Origin: Chlorobiota bacterium | GTDB taxonomy: Bacteria; Bacteroidota; Bacteroidia; Flavobacteriales; Flavobacteriaceae | Assembly (NCBI GenBank): GCA_013153605.1 | Contig: JAADED010000074.1 | Span: forward strand, 1 to 61,485 | Length of the DNA: 61,485 bases | Direction: 5' to 3' | In this document: piece by piece, positions 1,429 through 12,358 of the stretch | How positions within the stretch are numbered: the stretch's first letter is position 1 | How the letters are laid out: every line of letters starts with the position of its first letter | Notes under the pieces: model-generated | Databases searched by the model: none | Told to the model about the DNA's origin: nothing | The model's input: only the letters and a program-made list of their open reading frames with translations | Made by a program: the position numbers and the translations under genes

Positions 1429-3843
1429 ATGGACGCGGAAAAACCTTTCGCCAACGAGCAAATGGATTTGGAGGAATTCAAACGCCGGGTTCTCGAAGAT
1501 TATAGACTCATCAACATAAGCCGCCAAATGAGCCTTACGGGCCGCAAGGAAGTGCTCTCCGGCCGGGGGCAATTCGGCATTTTCGGTGACGGCAAGGAAC
1601 TGCCTCAAATTGCATGGGCCAAAGTGTTCAAACCCGGAGACTTCCGTTCGGGATATTACCGCGACCAAACCTTTATGATGGCCATCGGCAAGCTAACGCC
1701 CGAACAATTTTTCGCCCAAGTGTACGGCCATCCCGACCTTCGATACGAACCCCACTCGGGCGGCCGACAAATGAACAATCATTTCGCCACCCGCCTGATC
1801 GACGAAAACAAAGAATGGTTACCGCAAGCGGAAATGAAAAACACGGTGTCGGACATATCTCCCACCGGAGGACAAATGCCCCGGCTGGTAGGCTTGGCCC
1901 AGGCATCCAAACTTTACCGCCATTTGGATTTGCCCGAAGACTACAAACGTAAGTTTACCCGAAACGGCAACGAAATCGCATGGGGCACCATCGGTAACGC
2001 CAGTACGGCCGAAGGTTTGTTTTGGGAAACGGTAAATGCCGCCGGCGTGCTTCAAGTGCCCGTGGTCATCAGCATTTGGGACGACGAATACGGCATCTCC
2101 GTCCATGCCAAAGATCAAACCACCAAACAAAACATATCGGAAATCCTCAAAGGATTCCAACGGGATGAAAAGGGAGAAGGTTTCGAAATCTTTACCGTCA
2201 AAGGATGGGACTACCCCGCCTTGATCGAAACCTACGAAAAAGCCGAAAAAATTGCCCGCGAAGAGCATGTACCCGTTATTATTCACGTAACCGAACTCAC
2301 CCAACCTCAGGGGCACTCCACCTCGGGGTCGCACGAGCGTTATAAATCGGCCGAGCGGCTGGAATGGGAACGCGCCCACGACGGAATCGTGAAAATGCGC
2401 CAATGGATTTTGGAAAACAACCTGGCCGACGAAGCCGAACTGGACGCCATCGAATCCGAAGCCAAAAAAATCGCCAAAGAAGCGGCCAAACGCGCATGGG
2501 CCGCATATACCGCGCCCATGAAAGAAGCCAAGAAGGAATTGCTTCCCATTCTGGCCAAAGTGGCCAAAGAATCGCACAAGAAAAAAGAGGTGGAAGCCCT
2601 GGCGCTGGAATTGGCCAAACTCAAAGAGCCCAAACGCAGGGACATCTCCTCCGCCGCCCGCCGGATTCGCCTCATTACCGCGGGAGAATCCATTCCTTCC
2701 CGGGCCGAATTGGAGAAATGGCTGGAAGCATGGATGGCCGACAACAGCGAGCGATACGACAGCGGCCTTTTCACCGACGACCCGCGCGATCCCAAAGTAA
2801 TGCAATCGGTACCACCTCAATACGCCCCGGACGCCCCCATGGTGGACGGTCGCATTATTTTGCGGGATAATTTTGAAAAATTGTTTGAAAAATACCCCCA
2901 CCTGGTGGCCTTCGGCGAGGACGTGGGCAAAATCGGAGACGTCAACCAGGGAATGGAAGGACTTCAAAAAAAATTCGGCGAACTCCGCATTTTCGACACC
3001 GGCATCCGTGAAACCACCATCATCGGTCAAGGAATCGGCCTGGCGGTACGCGGCTTCCGGCCCATTGCCGAAATCCAGTATTTGGACTACATCCTCTTTG
3101 CCCTACAAACCATCAGCGACGACGTGGCCACCATGCATTATCGAAGCGCCAAGCAACAAATGGTGCCCATTATCATTCGCACCCGCGGACACCGCCTCGA
3201 AGGGATTTGGCATTCGGGCTCGCCCATGAACGGAGTGCATACCTTGTCCAAAGGCATCTACATCCTGGTGCCCCGCGACATGACGCGCGCCGCCGGATTT
3301 TACAACACCCTCATGGACCTCAACAACCCCGCTTTGATCGTGGAAAGCCTCAACGGATACCGGTTGAAAGAAAAAATGCCGTCCAATTTGGGCGAATTCA
3401 AAGTACCCATCGGAGTGACCGAAACCCTCCGGGAAGGCACGGACATCACGTTGGTATCCTACGGCTCCACCTTGCGCCTGGTTATGCAAGCGGCCGAAGA
3501 GCTGGCCAAGCTGGGCATCGACAGCGAAGTGATCGACGTGCAATCGCTCCACCCCTTCGACACACCCGGCGATATTGCCAAGAGCGTGAAGAAAACCAAC
3601 AAATTGGTCGTCATTGACGAAGACGTGTCGGGCGGTGCCACGGCTTATATCCTTGATCAAATTATTAACAAACAGGGAGCTTGGGCCTATTTGGACGCCC
3701 AACCTTTGACCATTCACGCCAAAGATCACCGGCCGGCTTATGCCGCCGACGGGGATTATTTCTCCAAACCTTCGGTGGACGACATCATGGAAGGCGTGTA
3801 CGGCGTGATGCATCAATACGACCCCGCCAAATACCCCTTATGA
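1429..3843 (+). CDS. Fused 2-oxoacid dehydrogenase E1 component, alpha and beta subunits in one chain
   Basis: Thiamine-diphosphate enzyme that decarboxylates a 2-oxoacid and passes the acyl group to the lipoyl E2 of a pyruvate or branched-chain dehydrogenase complex. In 804 residues it joins an alpha-type TPP domain (about 20-330), a charged linker (about 330-465), a beta-type pyrimidine-binding domain (about 470-660, with FGEDVG and RIFDTGIRE) and a transketolase C-terminal domain (about 675-800). Such alpha/beta fusions are common in Bacteroidota. The alpha TPP motif is atypical: the usual GDG...NN metal-binding motif reads G-N190-A ... D218-D219, so the Asp and Asn are effectively swapped. 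The stop overlaps the next start (ATGA). The substrate cannot be told from sequence. Confidence 0.9.
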   Translation: MDAEKPFANEQMDLEEFKRRVLEDYRLINISRQMSLTGRKEVLSGRGQFGIFGDGKELPQIAWAKVFKPGDFRSGYYRDQTFMMAIGKLTPEQFFAQVYGHPDLRYEPHSGGRQMNNHFATRLIDENKEWLPQAEMKNTVSDISPTGGQMPRLVGLAQASKLYRHLDLPEDYKRKFTRNGNEIAWGTIGNASTAEGLFWETVNAAGVLQVPVVISIWDDEYGISVHAKDQTTKQNISEILKGFQRDEKGEGFEIFTVKGWDYPALIETYEKAEKIAREEHVPVIIHVTELTQPQGHSTSGSHERYKSAERLEWERAHDGIVKMRQWILENNLADEAELDAIESEAKKIAKEAAKRAWAAYTAPMKEAKKELLPILAKVAKESHKKKEVEALALELAKLKEPKRRDISSAARRIRLITAGESIPSRAELEKWLEAWMADNSERYDSGLFTDDPRDPKVMQSVPPQYAPDAPMVDGRIILRDNFEKLFEKYPHLVAFGEDVGKIGDVNQGMEGLQKKFGELRIFDTGIRETTIIGQGIGLAVRGFRPIAEIQYLDYILFALQTISDDVATMHYRSAKQQMVPIIIRTRGHRLEGIWHSGSPMNGVHTLSKGIYILVPRDMTRAAGFYNTLMDLNNPALIVESLNGYRLKEKMPSNLGEFKVPIGVTETLREGTDITLVSYGSTLRLVMQAAEELAKLGIDSEVIDVQSLHPFDTPGDIAKSVKKTNKLVVIDEDVSGGATAYILDQIINKQGAWAYLDAQPLTIHAKDHRPAYAADGDYFSKPSVDDIMEGVYGVMHQYDPAKYPL

Positions 3844-4730
3844 GCCGGCGACCGGTCATTTGGACGGCATGGGTATGGACCCTCCTGGCGGCGGGCGGAT
3901 GCGTACGGGAAATTCCCCTTCCCCTCCCATCGCACGAAGAAGAATTGGTGGTTTGGTCCATATTGGAACCGGACAGCCTTCCGACGGTATTCGTCAACCT
4001 GAGCCAACCTCTCGGAGCGGACAGCATCCGGCGATATGCGGCGGGTGCCACAGTCATTTTGGAAAGCCGTCCCGGCGGCACCGATACCCTGGTTTTCGAG
4101 CCCGGGCTTGAAGCTTATATCGGCCGCATGCCGGCCCGTCCCGATGCGGAATACCGCCTCAAAGTGAAATACGACTCATATACGGCCACGGCCGTGACCC
4201 GCTTTCCGCCCGTACCACAAGCTCGGCTCATCGCGGTCGAAAGCGCCATGATTCCCGTGGAGGAATACTATGGCGATGCGGTGAAAGTGGTATTGGAAAT
4301 CCGGGATCCGCCGGGCGAAAATTATTATATGTTGCAGGCATGGCACATCCGGGACCAATCGGGACGAAGCGCAGCTTATCCCATGCATATTGCCTCCTCT
4401 CCGGCCCAGGATCCGGTGATACGAAACGAAGGATTTCGATTCATGAGCACGTCGGTATCTTTCTCCGATCTTGCTTTTGACGGCACCGATTACCGATTGA
4501 CGGTCTATTACCACGGTTGGCCCGAAGACGGAGATACCGTCCGCATCAACCTGTATGCCCAGGATCAATACGCCTATCTGTGGGAAAAATTCAAAGTTTA
4601 TCGCCGGGAAGCGGGCGAATCCGTACTGGGGGCAGTGGAACCCATGCTCTTTCCCGACAATATCGAAGGCGGAATCGGCGTGTTCGGCGCCCGTCGCGAC
4701 ACCGTGCTTACGGGCATATTTCACGATTAA
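3840..4730 (+). CDS. DUF4249 family outer-membrane-associated lipoprotein
   Basis: A 296-residue lipoprotein: signal peptide ending in the lipobox LAAGGC (Cys21), then a beta-rich domain (EEELVVWSILEPDSLPTVFV; later VFGARRDTVLTGIF) of the DUF4249 type. Members of this family are usually encoded immediately before a TonB-dependent receptor with an N-terminal carboxypeptidase-like domain, as here, so it probably serves as the surface partner of the receptor at 4751. I chose the ATG at 3840 because it gives the signal peptide and overlaps the E1 stop by 4 nt. The frame is open further upstream, but that stretch lies inside the E1 gene. The cargo is unknown. Confidence 0.85.
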   Translation: MSRRPVIWTAWVWTLLAAGGCVREIPLPLPSHEEELVVWSILEPDSLPTVFVNLSQPLGADSIRRYAAGATVILESRPGGTDTLVFEPGLEAYIGRMPARPDAEYRLKVKYDSYTATAVTRFPPVPQARLIAVESAMIPVEEYYGDAVKVVLEIRDPPGENYYMLQAWHIRDQSGRSAAYPMHIASSPAQDPVIRNEGFRFMSTSVSFSDLAFDGTDYRLTVYYHGWPEDGDTVRINLYAQDQYAYLWEKFKVYRREAGESVLGAVEPMLFPDNIEGGIGVFGARRDTVLTGIFHD

Positions 4731-4750
4731 TTTTTTATAAACCCGTCCGT

Positions 4751-7066
4751 ATGAAAATCCGCCCTCTCGTTTGGAATATTTTATGGTTGGCGCTCACTTT
4801 GTCCTACGGACAAAAAATTACGGTGACGGGCATCGTGTATGATGCCGAAACCAAAGAAAAACTGGAAGGAGCCCAAATTTATGCACCCGACGCGGGCAAA
4901 GGAACGGTAACCAATACTTTCGGATTTTTCAGCTTGCAATTACCCCCGGCCGATTCGGTTCGTTTGGGAATTTCCCACATCGGCTACCGGTCCCGCCTGA
5001 TTACCGTGAAAGCGCAACCCGTCATTCGCTTGGACGTGGCTTTGGAACCGGGCGAAACGTTGAACGAAGTGGTGATTACCGCCGACACGGAGGAGCGGCC
5101 GGAAAAAGACGTGCGTACGGGAAAAATTTCCTTGCGGCCGGCCGAAATCGCCCGCATGCCCAGCATATTTTCGGAACCCGATTTGATTAAAGCCCTCCAA
5201 AAAATGCCGGGCGTGGAAGAAGGTACCGAAGGAACGGCGGGCCTTTACGTGCGGGGCGGAAGCTTGGATCAAAATTTTATTCTGATCGACGACGTACCGG
5301 TATATTATCTTTTTCACCTCGGAGGATTTGTCTCCATCTTCAATCCCGAGGCGGTAAAGCGAATCACCCTCTACAAAGGAGGCTTTCCGGTGAGGTACGG
5401 CGAACGTCTTTCGTCGGTGGTGGACATCCGCACCCGCGACGGTCATAAAAACGAATACCACGGCGCGTACAGAATCGGATTGCTCAGCTGGAAATTCTCG
5501 CTCGAAGGGCCTGTCGTCAAAGACCGCACCTCCTTTATGTTTTCCGTACGCCGGTTTCCCTACGATATTTTTCTCAAAACCGTGGCGGCCATTTCCACGG
5601 GCGGCGAAGAACGATACGGATATACCTTTTATGATTTAAACTTGAAAATTCACCACCGCCTGGGACGACGCGATAATTTGTATTTCACTTTTTATACGGG
5701 CGACGATGCCGTGAGCATGGTTTTCAAATATGGAATCGACAAAACCCTTTACCGCCTCGGATGGGGCAATCGCATTATGGCGGTCAAATGGGCAAGGCCC
5801 GTGGGGGCGAAATGGTTTGTGAACACCACTCTCTCCCGTTCGGGATACCGCTACGGCCGACATATGAAAGACGACTGGAAAACCGAAAGGTACCTTTCCG
5901 ATTTTCGGTACAAATCGGGCATCACCGAAACCCGACTTCAATCTCATTGGGAATACCGCATTTCACCCCAAACCGTCCTTGAAACCGGCGGCGGAGCCGT
6001 CATATACGATTTCCTTCCCGGCCGCATGACCATGTATTACCGCGAAGACGGGACGGTGGTGCTCGATACCACCGTGGAAAATTTCCGTTACCGCTCCCGG
6101 TTGCTTTATGGTTACGGCGCCCTACGGATTCGCCCCCTCCCCTTTGCGGAAATGGAGGGAGGTATTCGCCTCAACACCTTTTTCTTTTCCAATCATCATG
6201 CGGTGACGATCGAACCCAGACTTAATCTCAAATTTTCAACCGGCCGGTCGGGAGCCGTGAAGTTTTCCTACACACACATCAGCCAACCCCTCCACTTGCT
6301 GAGCTCGGGCCGCTTGGGCATGCCGGTGGATTTGTGGATGCCGGCCACCGATTTGGTGCCGCCGGCGGTAAGCCGTCAAATCGCGGCGGGATATTACCGC
6401 TCTTGGGATAACGGTCGCTATGATTTGAGTTGGGAAGTGTATTACAAAACCATGAAAGGATTGATCGCCTACAAACCGGGCATGTCGTTCTACCATTTCG
6501 CTTTCAGCAAATGGGAACAAGCCGTGGCCCGCGACGGAACGGGATACGGAGGGGGAAGCGAGATCCTTTTGCGCAAGCGCAAGGGTAAATGGCAGGGATT
6601 TATAGCCTATACCTACTCGCGTTCGTTCCGCCGGTTCGAAGAGCTCAACCGGGGCCGACCCTTCCCCTTCGACTACGACCGCCCGCACCGAATCGACATC
6701 TCGGCCGTGTGGCAATGGAAGCCCGGCAGAACGTTGTCGCTTGCATGGACCTACGGATCGGGATATCCGGTGAGCTTCCCGTCCGGCCTGGTATATGTGC
6801 GCGAAGGGAACGGAGGATATCAAATTTTGTTATATACCGAAAAAAACAACCTCCGGTTGCGCCCCTACCACCGATTGGACCTGAGCATGCAATTCACCAA
6901 ACCCAAACGCCGGGGCGAACGCACATGGATCATAGGGGTGTATAACGCCTACAATCGGAAGAATCCTTTCTTCTATACCCTCACCTGGCAAGACGGAGGA
7001 TATCGGCTTTATCAAATCAGCTTGTTCCCCGTCCTTCCTTCGGTGGCATACGTCCGTCGTTTTTAA
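4751..7066 (+). CDS. TonB-dependent receptor with carboxypeptidase-like regulatory domain
   Basis: 771 residues. It has a signal peptide (ending SYGQ), an N-terminal CarboxypepD_reg-like beta sandwich (about 22-105, KITVTGIVYDAETKEKLEGA), a plug domain (about 115-230, KMPGVEEGTEGTAGLYVRGG and DDVPVYYLFHLGG) and a C-terminal 22-strand-type barrel rich in aromatic/charged strands, ending in an aromatic residue (VRRF). It imports an unidentified substrate across the outer membrane using TonB/ExbBD energy. It lies 20 nt downstream of the DUF4249 lipoprotein gene and is probably co-transcribed with it. The start at 4751 is chosen for its signal peptide; the frame is open further upstream inside the DUF4249 gene. 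Confidence 0.92.
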   Translation: MKIRPLVWNILWLALTLSYGQKITVTGIVYDAETKEKLEGAQIYAPDAGKGTVTNTFGFFSLQLPPADSVRLGISHIGYRSRLITVKAQPVIRLDVALEPGETLNEVVITADTEERPEKDVRTGKISLRPAEIARMPSIFSEPDLIKALQKMPGVEEGTEGTAGLYVRGGSLDQNFILIDDVPVYYLFHLGGFVSIFNPEAVKRITLYKGGFPVRYGERLSSVVDIRTRDGHKNEYHGAYRIGLLSWKFSLEGPVVKDRTSFMFSVRRFPYDIFLKTVAAISTGGEERYGYTFYDLNLKIHHRLGRRDNLYFTFYTGDDAVSMVFKYGIDKTLYRLGWGNRIMAVKWARPVGAKWFVNTTLSRSGYRYGRHMKDDWKTERYLSDFRYKSGITETRLQSHWEYRISPQTVLETGGGAVIYDFLPGRMTMYYREDGTVVLDTTVENFRYRSRLLYGYGALRIRPLPFAEMEGGIRLNTFFFSNHHAVTIEPRLNLKFSTGRSGAVKFSYTHISQPLHLLSSGRLGMPVDLWMPATDLVPPAVSRQIAAGYYRSWDNGRYDLSWEVYYKTMKGLIAYKPGMSFYHFAFSKWEQAVARDGTGYGGGSEILLRKRKGKWQGFIAYTYSRSFRRFEELNRGRPFPFDYDRPHRIDISAVWQWKPGRTLSLAWTYGSGYPVSFPSGLVYVREGNGGYQILLYTEKNNLRLRPYHRLDLSMQFTKPKRRGERTWIIGVYNAYNRKNPFFYTLTWQDGGYRLYQISLFPVLPSVAYVRRF

Positions 7067-7133: not shown

Positions 7134-7268
7134 ATGACACTGGCCACCGTTTTGTTTATCATCGTGATGCTCCACCTGTTGATCGGGTTCGGATATGTAT
7201 TTTATAAATTGCAAAGCGGCGGCAAAAAGAAAACAGATGAAGACCAAACCCGCACGGATTCTTTCTAA
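7134..7268 (+). CDS. Small single-span membrane protein (44 aa)
   Basis: Short frame with one strongly hydrophobic helix (about residues 3-24, LATVLFIIVMLHLLIGFGYV) followed by a Lys-rich then acidic polar tail (GGKKKTDEDQ). The last 32 nt overlap the start of the downstream peptidase-like gene in another frame, suggesting translational coupling. I do not recognise a family. Support is the clear membrane topology and good positioning; a chance ORF cannot be excluded. Confidence 0.5.
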   Translation: MTLATVLFIIVMLHLLIGFGYVFYKLQSGGKKKTDEDQTRTDSF

Positions 7269-8787
7269 ATACCTTTTTATTTTACTATTGACCGGCACGA
7301 CGGCCATGTCCATTTTGGTGTCGGGACATCGTTTGCCCGGCCGCGACGATCCGGGGTTGCACTATGCCTACCGCCTTTCGATGGACTCCCTGATGTATTT
7401 GATAAACTTATTGGCTTCGGACTCATTGGAAGGCCGCGAAACCGGCACCGACGGAGAACTTAAGGCCGCCCGCCTTCTGGCCCGCTGGCACGAAGATAAC
7501 GGCGTCCCGCCCGGACGACACGAATACATTCAAGAATTTCAAGTGGTTAAGCCCGGTATTCCCGACGCTTATATTTATACCGATATGGATACCTTTCGGG
7601 TGGGTAAAGATTTTTTGAGCCTCTTTCCCCATGACAGCGCTTTCTTTTTCGACGATCATATCGTGTATGTAGGCTACGGCATCAGCGACCCGTCTTGGAA
7701 CGATTACGCCTACTATGACGTGCGGGGCAAAATCGTCTTGGCCAAAGAAGGAGAACCCAAAGACAATTTCGGAGTGAATATTCTCACCGCCACCGATCGC
7801 CCCTCCGAATGGTCGGCCGATCCCATTCATGCCTATATCCGCAAGCGCAATGTGGCCATGCAACACGGAGCCAAAGCCTTCCTGTATTACGCCCCCCGCA
7901 CTTACGCCCTGTTTCGAGACATCTATCACCGGATATACGAAAATACCGACCGCACCGTCACCATCGAACCCGATACTCTGTACGATTTTATCATCAACGA
8001 CCGCGTATTGGAAGGCCTGACGGGATACGACAATTTGAACGGCGTCTATTACGAAGGGCCGCGCGACCGCAAATGGCCCGTGCCCGTAGCTGTGGAATTC
8101 GGAAGCAAGACCGTATCTTATCCCGCGCGCAACGTGCTGGCCCGCGTGGACGGCGACCTCAAAGCCGACGAAGTAATTTTGGTGATTGCCAATTTCGATC
8201 ATCTCGGTAAAGAAAACGATTCGGTTTGGTATCCGGGAGCCAACAATAATGCCTCGGGCACGGCCGCTTTGGCCGAAATCGCCAAGATGTTCCAAATCGC
8301 AAGGGAAGAAGGCCATCCCCCGGCCCGTACCGTGTACTTCGTACATTCGGGCGGGAGAGAAAAAAATCATATCGGGGCCAAATATTTCTTCGAACGCATG
8401 CCTTTCGCCCGCCATAAGCTCAAAGCGGTGGTGGACCTGGACATGTTGGGATACAGGGATACACTGCTTCAAAATCCGTATTCCCTTTATTTGGCGGTAT
8501 CTTACCCCAATAAACGGGTGATGAAAAAATTGGACGAAGCCAACCGGCTGGGACCCGCTCTGGAATTGGTCCGTATCAATCCGGTAAAAGCTTATCAGGA
8601 TCCCGTATTGTCCACCGACGGCATTGTCTTTTACAGCCGAGGATTTCCGGTTTATTTTTTGAGTAACGGCCCCTCTTATCCTTTTAATCGCACGCCCAAG
8701 GATACGCCCGACAAAATCGACGGGGACCTCTATACCCAAAGGGTGCGGTTCGCCTTTTTGACGGCATGGATTTTGGCAAACGAATAA
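7237..8787 (+). CDS. M28-peptidase-like protein, predicted inactive (pseudo-peptidase)
   Basis: 516 residues with an N-terminal hydrophobic signal/anchor (about 8-28), a PA-like inserted domain (about 120-300) and a C-terminal M28 zinc-aminopeptidase fold. The fold is recognisable from the NNNASGTAALAEIAK, VVDLDMLGY and KDTPDKID blocks. The metal site is mostly lost. The usual AHYDH reads ANFDH (His to Asn319). GADDNASG reads GANNNASG (bridging Asp to Asn337). The catalytic Glu of the GEE motif is Arg374 (Glu375 kept). The His of the YHxPxDT motif aligns with Arg485. It is probably a periplasmic binding or scaffold protein and not a hydrolase. I chose the ATG at 7237 because it begins the signal sequence and follows the small gene with overlap. 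Confidence 0.85.
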   Translation: MKTKPARILSKYLFILLLTGTTAMSILVSGHRLPGRDDPGLHYAYRLSMDSLMYLINLLASDSLEGRETGTDGELKAARLLARWHEDNGVPPGRHEYIQEFQVVKPGIPDAYIYTDMDTFRVGKDFLSLFPHDSAFFFDDHIVYVGYGISDPSWNDYAYYDVRGKIVLAKEGEPKDNFGVNILTATDRPSEWSADPIHAYIRKRNVAMQHGAKAFLYYAPRTYALFRDIYHRIYENTDRTVTIEPDTLYDFIINDRVLEGLTGYDNLNGVYYEGPRDRKWPVPVAVEFGSKTVSYPARNVLARVDGDLKADEVILVIANFDHLGKENDSVWYPGANNNASGTAALAEIAKMFQIAREEGHPPARTVYFVHSGGREKNHIGAKYFFERMPFARHKLKAVVDLDMLGYRDTLLQNPYSLYLAVSYPNKRVMKKLDEANRLGPALELVRINPVKAYQDPVLSTDGIVFYSRGFPVYFLSNGPSYPFNRTPKDTPDKIDGDLYTQRVRFAFLTAWILANE

Positions 8788-8799
8788 AACAAAACGACC

Positions 8800-10530
8800 A
8801 TGATTAATAAAGAAGAAGTTATTCGCCGGGCACGCGTATGGACACGCCCTCCGTTCGACGAAGAAACGCGACGGGAAGTTCTCCGCCTGTTGGAAGAGGA
8901 TGAAGATACACTGATCGAAAGTTTTTACAAGGATTTGGAATTCGGCACCGGCGGCATGCGCGGCATCATGGGTGTGGGCACCAACCGGATGAACAAATAC
9001 ACCATCGGCCGCAACACCCAGGGATTGGCCAATTACCTCAAACAGGTTTTTCCCGACAAAGACTTATCGGTAGCCGTCAATTACGACGTACGCCATAACA
9101 GCCGCCGATTCGCCCGCATCGCGGCATCGGTGCTCAGCGCCAACGGAATCAAAGTTTATCTTTTCAAAGAATTCCGCCCCACGCCCGAATTGTCGTTCGC
9201 GGTACGCTACCTCAAAACCGATGCGGGCATCGTGCTGACGGCTTCGCACAATCCGCCCGAATACAACGGGTATAAAGTGTACTGGAACGACGGCGCCCAA
9301 GTGGTGCCTCCTCACGACATAGGCATCGTGGAAGCCATCAAACGGGTAAAATTCGAAGACATCCGCTTCGACGGAGACGAATCGCTCATCGAATATATAG
9401 GCGAAGAAATGGACAACGCCTTTATCGAAGCGGCGGTGAGCCATGCCACTTTCGGCGACAAGCGGCGAGATGCCGTCAAAATCCTTTTTACGCCCTTGCA
9501 CGGTACCTCCATTACCATCATGCCGCGGGCCATGCAACGGGCGGGATTCACCGATTTTCATATCGTGGAAGAACAGGCGGTGCCCGACGGCGATTTTCCC
9601 ACCGTGGAATCGCCCAATCCCGAAGAACCTTCGGCCTTCCTGATGGCTTTGGAAAAAGCCGAACGCATCGGAGCCGACATCATCCTGGCCACCGACCCCG
9701 ACGCCGACCGCATTGCGGTGGCGGTACGCGATATCGAAGGAAAAATGACCCTCCTCAACGGCAACCAAACCATGGCCGTAATGGATCAGTATTTGATCGA
9801 CAAACACCGGGAAATCCACGGATTAAAAGGAAACGAATTCATTGCCTCCACCATCGTATCCACCGACCTGATTTTGGATATCGGCCGCGAAACCGGCGTG
9901 ATCGTGAAACGAAGCCTCACCGGGTTCAAATGGATTGCCAAACTGATCCGCGATTACGAAGGTAAATTGAAATTCCTCGGAGGGGGCGAAGAAAGCTTCG
10001 GCTACATGGTGGGAGATTTCGTACGCGATAAAGACAGCATCACATCGGGACTCCTGGCCGCCGAAATTGCCGCCGAAATGAAAGAAAAGGGTTCGTCGTT
10101 TTTCGAATATTTGTTGGACATCTATATTCGATACAAATTTTATAAAGAACACTTGGTGGCGCTGGTCAAAAAAGGCCTTAAAGGAAAGGAAGAAATCGAA
10201 CGGATTATGAAACGCTTCCGCGAATCGCCTCCGTCAACCATTTCGGGCGAGAAAGTGGTGCGCATCGAAGATTACTTGAAAGGAGAAATCCGCAATCTTA
10301 CCACCGGCCGTACCGAACCCATAACCGAAATTCCGCGCTCCAACGTGTTGATTTTTTATACCGACCGCCAAACCAAGGTAGCCTTACGCCCCAGCGGCAC
10401 GGAACCCAAAATCAAATTTTACATCAGCGTGAATACCGACTTGCCGTCCAAAGCGGCGTATCCCGAAAAAGACCGGGAATTGGCGGAAAAAATCCGGGCA
10501 ATTGTCAAAGAGTTGGGTATAGATGGATAA
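8800..10530 (+). CDS. Phospho-sugar mutase (phosphoglucomutase/phosphomannomutase family)
   Basis: 576 residues, the length of the long bacterial alpha-phosphohexomutases. All four domains are marked by motifs: the catalytic phosphoserine loop TASHNP (Ser149), the Mg2+ loop DPDADR (299-304), the sugar-binding loop GGGEESFG (394-401) and the phosphate-binding loop RPSGTEPK (530-537). It interconverts hexose 1- and 6-phosphates, feeding glycogen/cell-wall precursors or UDP-glucose. Its last 8 nt overlap the ABC transporter start. Whether glucose or mannose phosphate is preferred cannot be decided from motifs alone. Confidence 0.92.
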   Translation: MINKEEVIRRARVWTRPPFDEETRREVLRLLEEDEDTLIESFYKDLEFGTGGMRGIMGVGTNRMNKYTIGRNTQGLANYLKQVFPDKDLSVAVNYDVRHNSRRFARIAASVLSANGIKVYLFKEFRPTPELSFAVRYLKTDAGIVLTASHNPPEYNGYKVYWNDGAQVVPPHDIGIVEAIKRVKFEDIRFDGDESLIEYIGEEMDNAFIEAAVSHATFGDKRRDAVKILFTPLHGTSITIMPRAMQRAGFTDFHIVEEQAVPDGDFPTVESPNPEEPSAFLMALEKAERIGADIILATDPDADRIAVAVRDIEGKMTLLNGNQTMAVMDQYLIDKHREIHGLKGNEFIASTIVSTDLILDIGRETGVIVKRSLTGFKWIAKLIRDYEGKLKFLGGGEESFGYMVGDFVRDKDSITSGLLAAEIAAEMKEKGSSFFEYLLDIYIRYKFYKEHLVALVKKGLKGKEEIERIMKRFRESPPSTISGEKVVRIEDYLKGEIRNLTTGRTEPITEIPRSNVLIFYTDRQTKVALRPSGTEPKIKFYISVNTDLPSKAAYPEKDRELAEKIRAIVKELGIDG

Positions 10531-12358
10531 GAATCTGAAAAAAATACTGGTTTACGCCAAACCTTATAAAAAATTCATTTCGCTCAACGTATTGAGCAAT
10601 ATCTTGTATTCCTTCTTCGGGATGCTCTCCTTCTTGGTGCTCATTCCCATGCTGGATATTTTGTTCAACGTCCGGCCCGGCGAGATTCCGCCCCCGCCTC
10701 GGTGGGAAGGCATTACCAAAGCCAAAGCCTACCTGGAACAATGGCTGTCCCATTATTGGGCCCAATACGTGCAAACGCACGAAACGGCGCAGGTGTTGAT
10801 TTCGGTCATCGCCCTGGTACTGGCGGTCATCATGCTCAAGAATATGTTCGGTTATGCCGCCATGGTGTTTGCCACCTTTTTGCGCAACGGAATTTTGAGG
10901 GACTTGCGTAAAGATTTGTATCGAAAAATTCTTTCCTTGCCCATCGGATTTTTTTCCGAACGCCGCAAAGGCGATACCTTTTCGCGCATCACCGCCGACG
11001 TGAACGAGGTGCAAAACACCACCATGATTTTTTTGGAAATGATCGTGCGCGAACCCACCACCATTCTTTTCAGCGTCGTGGCCATGTGGATGCTCAACGC
11101 CAAATTGAGCCTGTTCATTTTTATGTTCGTGCCGGTGGCGGGACTCATCATTTCCGCCGTGGGAAAAAAACTCAAGCAAAGCAGCCTTGAAGTCCAGCAA
11201 GTCAATGCCCGGTTTTTCAGCCATGTGGACGAAACCTTATCGGGCATCAAAATCATCAAGGCATTTAATGCGGAAAATTTGTTTATCCGCAAATTCGACC
11301 GAATTCAAGATCTCATGTACCGCCTGACCAACCGGATGGCCAACCGGCAAAACCTGAGCGGCCCGCTAAGCGAAACTTTGGGCGTAGCAGTCATTGCCGG
11401 CATCATCGGCTACGGGGGGCACCTCGTGCTTATTGAAAAGAGCCTCTCTCCTTCGGTATTCATGACCTTTATAGCTCTGGCCTATAACGTGCTTACCCCC
11501 GCCAAGAATATCGCCAAGGCGGGATATGCCATCCGTCGGGGCCTAGCGTCGGCCGAACGGGTGTTCGAAATCATGGAAGCGCGGGATCAAATACCCGAAA
11601 AACCCGATGCCATTTCCAAAAAAACCTTCGACGACAAAATCGAGCTTGACCATGTCTATTTTAAATACGAGCTGGACGAAGTCCTCAAAGACGTCACCTT
11701 CACCATCCCCAAAGGATACACCGTGGCTTTGGTAGGCCAATCGGGGAGCGGAAAGACCACCATCGCCCATCTCTTAATGCGCTTTTACGACGTCACCAAA
11801 GGGGCCATCAAAATCGACGGTATCGACATCCGGGACATCAAAAAGAAAGACTTGCGCAATCTGATGGCCATCGTTACCCAGGAGAGCATCCTCTTTAATG
11901 ATACGGTCCGCAACAACATCGCTTTGGCCAAGCCCGACGCCACCATGGAAGAAATCATCCGCGCGGCCAAAGTGGCCAATGCCCACGACTTCATTATGCA
12001 ATTACCTCAAGGGTACGACACCGTCATCGGCGATCAGGGGAACAAGCTCTCGGGCGGTCAAAAACAGCGGATCAACATCGCCCGCGCCGTACTCAAAAAC
12101 CCGCCCGTCATGATTTTGGACGAAGCCACCAGCGCCCTGGACACCGAATCGGAACGTTTGGTCCAGGAAGCGTTGGACAAACTCATGGAAAACCATACCA
12201 GCCTCGTGATTGCCCACCGGTTGTCCACCATCAAAAATGCGGATTTGATCATCGTGATGGAAAAAGGACGCGTCATCGAAACGGGCACCCACCGCGAGCT
12301 CATGGAAAAAAGGGGCGTGTACCACAAATTGGTTACCCTCCAATCATTCGATTTGTAA
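10523..12358 (+). CDS. MsbA-like ABC transporter, fused permease and ATPase
   Basis: 611 residues. It has six transmembrane helices in the first about 330 residues, then a nucleotide-binding domain with Walker A GQSGSGKTT (405-413), the ABC signature LSGGQ (509-513), Walker B VMILDEATSAL and the switch His in VIAHRLST. This half-transporter would work as a homodimer exporting lipid A/lipid-linked or other amphipathic substrates from the inner membrane. The long periplasmic loop between the first two helices (about residues 50-85, Pro-rich) is typical of the Bacteroidota version. It overlaps the mutase gene by 8 nt. Confidence 0.92.
   Translation: MDKNLKKILVYAKPYKKFISLNVLSNILYSFFGMLSFLVLIPMLDILFNVRPGEIPPPPRWEGITKAKAYLEQWLSHYWAQYVQTHETAQVLISVIALVLAVIMLKNMFGYAAMVFATFLRNGILRDLRKDLYRKILSLPIGFFSERRKGDTFSRITADVNEVQNTTMIFLEMIVREPTTILFSVVAMWMLNAKLSLFIFMFVPVAGLIISAVGKKLKQSSLEVQQVNARFFSHVDETLSGIKIIKAFNAENLFIRKFDRIQDLMYRLTNRMANRQNLSGPLSETLGVAVIAGIIGYGGHLVLIEKSLSPSVFMTFIALAYNVLTPAKNIAKAGYAIRRGLASAERVFEIMEARDQIPEKPDAISKKTFDDKIELDHVYFKYELDEVLKDVTFTIPKGYTVALVGQSGSGKTTIAHLLMRFYDVTKGAIKIDGIDIRDIKKKDLRNLMAIVTQESILFNDTVRNNIALAKPDATMEEIIRAAKVANAHDFIMQLPQGYDTVIGDQGNKLSGGQKQRINIARAVLKNPPVMILDEATSALDTESERLVQEALDKLMENHTSLVIAHRLSTIKNADLIIVMEKGRVIETGTHRELMEKRGVYHKLVTLQSFDL

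Follow-up and report, generated by a model that had tools for sequence, protein, structure and literature searches.

The window, i.e., the whole stretch of DNA analysed (61,485 nucleotides), carries on its forward strand an open reading frame at 7237-8787 that encodes the 516-residue protein P0001 (7237-8784); an alternative in-frame ATG lies upstream of its start, at 7195. Upstream, and on the same strand, the gene of a DUF4249 protein (3843..4730, with a provisional start) adjoins that of a TonB-dependent receptor (4727..7066), and a short ORF (7134..7268) for a 44-aa single-helix microprotein (MTLATVLFIIVMLHLLIGFGYVFYKLQSGGKKK...) overlaps the start of P0001. Downstream, and again on the forward strand, are a phosphosugar mutase of the phosphoglucomutase type (8800..10530), which begins after 12 bases, and an MsbA-like ABC transporter (10523..12358).

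As for P0001, its sole Pfam match is Peptidase_M28 (PF04389), over residues 299-500, with an E value of 2.1e-21 and 76.9 bits against a cut-off of 21.3; because it clears this cut-off so easily, the misannotation of such proteins as active aminopeptidases, of which the sequence-only reading had warned, is likely. Residues 1-30 (7237..7326, forward strand, as for all the features of the protein given below) form a hydrophobic segment predicted to be an export signal or a membrane anchor: its Kyte-Doolittle profile peaks at 2.04 at residue 13, the orthologues are similar, and the segment is a helix in the structural model; no lipobox Cys was seen in P0001. The inserted domain (residues 105-292; 7549..8112), now the more constrained one, is followed by the M28 catalytic-type domain (residues 293-516; 8113..8784), supported by Pfam, the model and the alignment, and the C-terminus comes directly after the latter. 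The insert is here called PA-like, as the Pfam PA model matches it with an E value of 0.003-0.004, below the cut-off, in one active-type homologue and in one orthologue, and the insert of the structure 2ek8 is weakly matched by the family profile.

Regarding the active site, the sequence-only reading had listed four altered positions, and its numbering proved exact. In the alignment, N319 (in IANFDHLG, 8191..8193) falls on the first metal-binding His, N337 (GANNNASG, 8245..8247) on the bridging Asp, R374 (GGREKNHIG) on the catalytic Glu, and R485 (YPFNRTPKDT, 8689..8691) on the last metal-binding His; we take these to correspond to H97, D117, E151 and H256 of the Aeromonas aminopeptidase (1AMP), whose homology with P0001 is supported by the family-profile search. 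Two of the five metal ligands are kept, namely E375, which follows R374 (8356..8361 for the two codons), and D402, presumably E152 and D179 in 1AMP numbering, while the other three are changed to N319, N337 and R485. The general-base Glu is absent, with Arg at 374 as in all seven members of the genus, and the His of the SDH motif is gone as well (G462). Finally, D400, which together with the retained D402 spans 8434..8442, is a new fixed acid, the corresponding residue being Asn in the active homologues.

The M28 fold is retained in P0001 according to an AlphaFold2 model built from the protein and 36 homologues. Over residues 293-516 the pLDDT is mostly 80-98, with one dip to ∼69 near 451-460; it is below 50 across most of the insert (109-289), where the alignment rows, which include mostly short M28s from viral contigs, hardly reach. 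Superposition with VIA-align 2 gave a Z score of 33.5 with BSAP (6hc7; rmsd of 2.1 over 260 residues), 32.9 with 2ek8, 32.7 with 1amp and ∼31 with transferrin receptor 1.

A whole-genome search recovered full-length orthologues in six further genomes of the genus, with 46-55% identity to P0001, and the seven readable copies have identities of 46-73% among themselves; one more genome (G007) has only a 41-residue C-terminal fragment at a contig end. No copy was found in G003, in an assembly that is 88% complete and in which the downstream mutase is missing too, so this absence is possibly a gap. All seven full copies have Asn at 319, Arg at 374 and Glu at 375. At 337, six have Asn and G002 has Leu; at 402, six have Asp and G006 has Gly; at 485, five have Arg and two have Lys, and the G007 fragment has Arg there as well. 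The ligand losses first read from a single protein hold, therefore, in seven of the seven orthologues, and the replacements themselves are conserved. The reading frames are open in all seven, and the genus pairs have saturated dS (at least 1.5) with pN/pS values of 0.22-0.59; the closest pair has a dN of 0.19 and a dS of 3.8. The gene is under purifying selection, and drift is unlikely given the open frames and a protein conserved at saturated synonymous divergence; with pN/pS below 0.6 at such distances, the selection on the altered protein that the sequence-only reading had suspected is borne out.

Homologues outside the genus were collected by searches at the order, class and phylum level, each over up to 400 sampled genomes, and by follow-up fetches; three candidates were scored per genome, so that a rare loss elsewhere could be missed. 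Among the resulting 156 distinct, full-length homologues from the sampled genomes, none had the same ligand loss: all six site residues are kept in 155, while in the other (L249), whose locus ends before the sixth, the first five are present. Loss of the ligands is thus seen in 7/7 genus orthologues versus 0/155 complete outside homologues. The genus proteins form one clade (support 100/100), whose stem measures 1.32 changes per column in the first tree and 0.83 in the second, wider tree; given one clade and a long stem, the pattern is explained by a single loss in the genus ancestor.

No other M28 is present in the genus. Apart from the pseudopeptidase, the M28 profile detects only two kinds of gene there; in the genome of the window, Pfam classes one as an M42 glutamyl aminopeptidase and the other as an M20 peptidase; a hidden active M28 copy was rejected, the remaining profile matches being of the M42 and M20 type. 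Other genera of the family often have several M28 genes. M42 and M20 peptidases (L002, L054) also score above the cut-off of the Pfam M28 model, and counts of M28 genes taken from this model alone are therefore too high. In several other genera (L011-L032, L045-L049), a long M28 and a short one of ∼350 aa, which has no insert, form a tandem; nearly all of these tandem M28s keep the site residues, and one short copy (G017_short) has Thr at the last His. As for more distant sources, a scan of genome contigs gave just four distant M28s, and a scan of viral contigs with the genus alignment gave no match; the same type of scan with a second query (A2) yielded 93 stretches that code for M28 relatives, most of which are short, and the contigs involved reach 527 kb.

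Within the genus, several residues were not simply lost and became fixed anew. A position was considered refixed if at least 95% of the outside homologues share one residue there and the genus uniformly has another; eight positions behave in this way, H319N, D336N, E374R, L378H, S381A, N400D, S426K and H481Y, and several of them are at the old active site. D336 is the residue just before the bridging Asp, and N400D introduces an extra acid two residues ahead of the retained D402, on the same strand.

The two domains also differ in how they have diverged. The insert (105-292) has a higher identity than the catalytic-type domain (293-516) in 20 of the 21 genus pairs and in none of the 12,090 outside pairs. 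The phosphoglucomutase-type mutase of the same genomes served as a divergence clock, with a line fitted to 253 active pairs: in the 15 genus pairs compared, the catalytic-type domain was 0.28 below this line (residual sd 0.045) and the insert 0.15 above it (sd 0.059), with every genus pair on the same side of the line for each domain; these figures are an effect size and not a test, as the pairs share branches and derive from one clock gene and one genus. They indicate that the constraint is inverted, the old catalytic domain being relaxed and the insert tightened. A relaxation of the catalytic domain alone was considered first, but the clock indicates a change in both domains.

Most M28 pseudopeptidases of established function are eukaryotic, as exemplified by the transferrin receptor and nicastrin. 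Transferrin receptor 1 and nicastrin/nicalin have an M28 fold without peptidase function, as proposed for P0001, and TfR1 and nicalin are among the matches of the family profile; however, they are eukaryotic, have additional domains, and bear no specific relationship to P0001. BSAP/YwaD of Bacillus subtilis and the Aneurinibacillus aminopeptidase (2ek8) share with P0001 not only the catalytic-type fold but also the order of the parts, in which an insert separates the N-terminal helices from the catalytic core; unlike them, P0001 has no metal His, bridging Asp, general-base Glu or last His. The nearest proteins in sequence are the long Bacteroidota M28s (L011-L033, L195-L329), with ∼30% identity over the full length and the same length and layout. 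Unlike P0001, all the complete ones have the six site residues; their constraint is on the catalytic domain, several are in tandem with a short M28, and judging from their sequences they are presumably active.

In bacteria, CA_C2195/DUF4910 is an M28-like protein with an altered metal site, as P0001 is, but it binds one zinc, has a winged-helix domain and belongs to a different family (PMC4000134). The glutaminyl cyclase, also an M28 relative, keeps the metal ligands and the catalytic Glu (PMC4000134), whereas in P0001 three of the five ligands and this Glu are lost. More than 550 non-peptidase homologues of M28 are found in MEROPS, few of which are characterised (PMC4000134). P0001 has M28 homology, has lost site residues and is under selection, which makes it a probable non-peptidase homologue of M28; it is not classed as an active M28 peptidase since, despite the homology, the defining residues fail. 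These non-peptidase homologues are also what P0001 would work most like. They are a known kind, of which P0001 is a new bacterial variant, and no bacterial M28 pseudopeptidase with this pattern was found described in the open-licence literature.

Regarding the neighbourhood, the order DUF4249 protein, TonB-dependent receptor and pseudopeptidase occurs in five genomes of the genus (G000, G001, G004, G005 and G006), although in G001 the place of the DUF4249 gene is held by a similar partial gene at the contig end. DUF4249 proteins are regular neighbours, and proposed partners, of a subfamily of TonB transporters (PMC11003636). A functional link of the pseudopeptidase to the receptor and the DUF4249 protein is possible but weak, because the receptor is elsewhere in G008 and is followed by other genes in G003 and G007. 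On the other side, the mutase comes directly after the pseudopeptidase in seven genomes of the genus (in G007, after the fragment) and not in G001. The pair formed by the mutase and the ABC transporter (8800-12358 in the window) is present in 17 of the 23 loci fetched outside the genus (L360-L382), independently of M28; being common in the family with no adjoining M28, it identifies the pseudopeptidase as the newcomer at this place. The function of the pseudopeptidase is undefined by its neighbourhood.

The microprotein consists of one hydrophobic helix, and it has homologues upstream of the pseudopeptidase in six of the seven genus genomes; no family of Pfam or NCBIfam matched it at the cut-off. 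In G005 it is located between secG and alaS, and other families of the order contain weak look-alikes, 33-49 aa long. These two observations counter the idea that it is a genus-specific partner of the pseudopeptidase, which was discarded.

The reading that we favour, with a probability of about 0.72, is that P0001 is a metal-free M28 pseudopeptidase of single origin, which dates from the genus ancestor and has been maintained ever since in a different role, as a binding or scaffold protein. To judge from its N-terminal hydrophobic segment, the protein would be exported, and it would stay in the periplasm, perhaps anchored via the N-terminal helix. The places of the two zinc ions may be occupied by R374 and by the Arg or Lys at 485, in salt bridges with the left-over acids (E375, D400 and D402) that would stabilise the pocket; from the residues involved, such a network probably replaces the two ions. 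Against this reading, one metal ion might still be bound weakly by E375 and D402. The insert would be the main site of contact with a partner protein or a ligand, in a binding or scaffold role after the manner of the transferrin receptor and nicastrin in eukaryotes.

Other explanations have to be set against this one. The low identity of the catalytic-type domain for the divergence involved is what a decaying pseudogene, or a sequencing or assembly error, might produce, but the same replacements recur in seven separate genomes, with open frames and pN/pS below 0.6 at saturated dS, and the inserted domain is tightly conserved; with the seven genomes concordant, error or decay was rejected and is very improbable. 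The protein might instead be purely structural, a docking protein whose old pocket serves only for folding and whose entire function lies in the insert and its partner. The shift of the constraint to the insert agrees with this, and the replacements in the pocket may be seen as a charge compensation for the lost metal ions; still, H378 and Y481 are fixed beyond the needs of plain charge balance, and this explanation is a possible but clearly less probable one.

The main rival to the scaffold role is a rebuilt pocket with a ligand or a chemistry of its own, because the new residues of the pocket are fixed and not variable. In its enzymatic form, P0001 would be a metal-free or one-metal enzyme in which the pocket made by R374, H378, D400 and N319 catalyses another reaction, or in which a single metal on E375 and D402 sustains hydrolysis. 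The residues round the old site became fixed without drift, E375 does not vary, and six of the seven genus copies have D402; in a genus that has no active M28, the gene may have been worth retaining as an enzyme, and a bacterial M28-like protein, CA_C2195, binds a single zinc (PMC4000134). However, the protein has neither of the His ligands, nor the bridging Asp or the general base, one orthologue is without D402 as well, and the catalytic-type domain evolves much faster than in the active relatives, which is ill-suited to a demanding active site; a changed enzyme is therefore unlikely. Somewhat more doubtful is the scheme of a novel exported protein of the genus for which the former aminopeptidase is a mere chassis: the zinc site would have become a metal-free pocket with a conserved chemistry or ligand of its own, with the insert as the main working surface, possibly within a membrane complex with the microprotein and the TonB-dependent receptor.

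In conclusion, the loss of the metal site first noticed in the sequence is confirmed and the interpretation given to it is supported; to these, the analysis adds the retention of E375 and D402, the lack of an active M28 in the genus, the shift of the constraint to the insert, the single origin of the loss and the refixed residues. The proteins of this genus are a set that automatic annotation would label as active peptidases; together, they would represent a clean case of the passage from an enzyme to a binding protein, with a single origin in one bacterial genus, more than 150 homologues that bear the ligands, and a measurable shift of constraint between domains.
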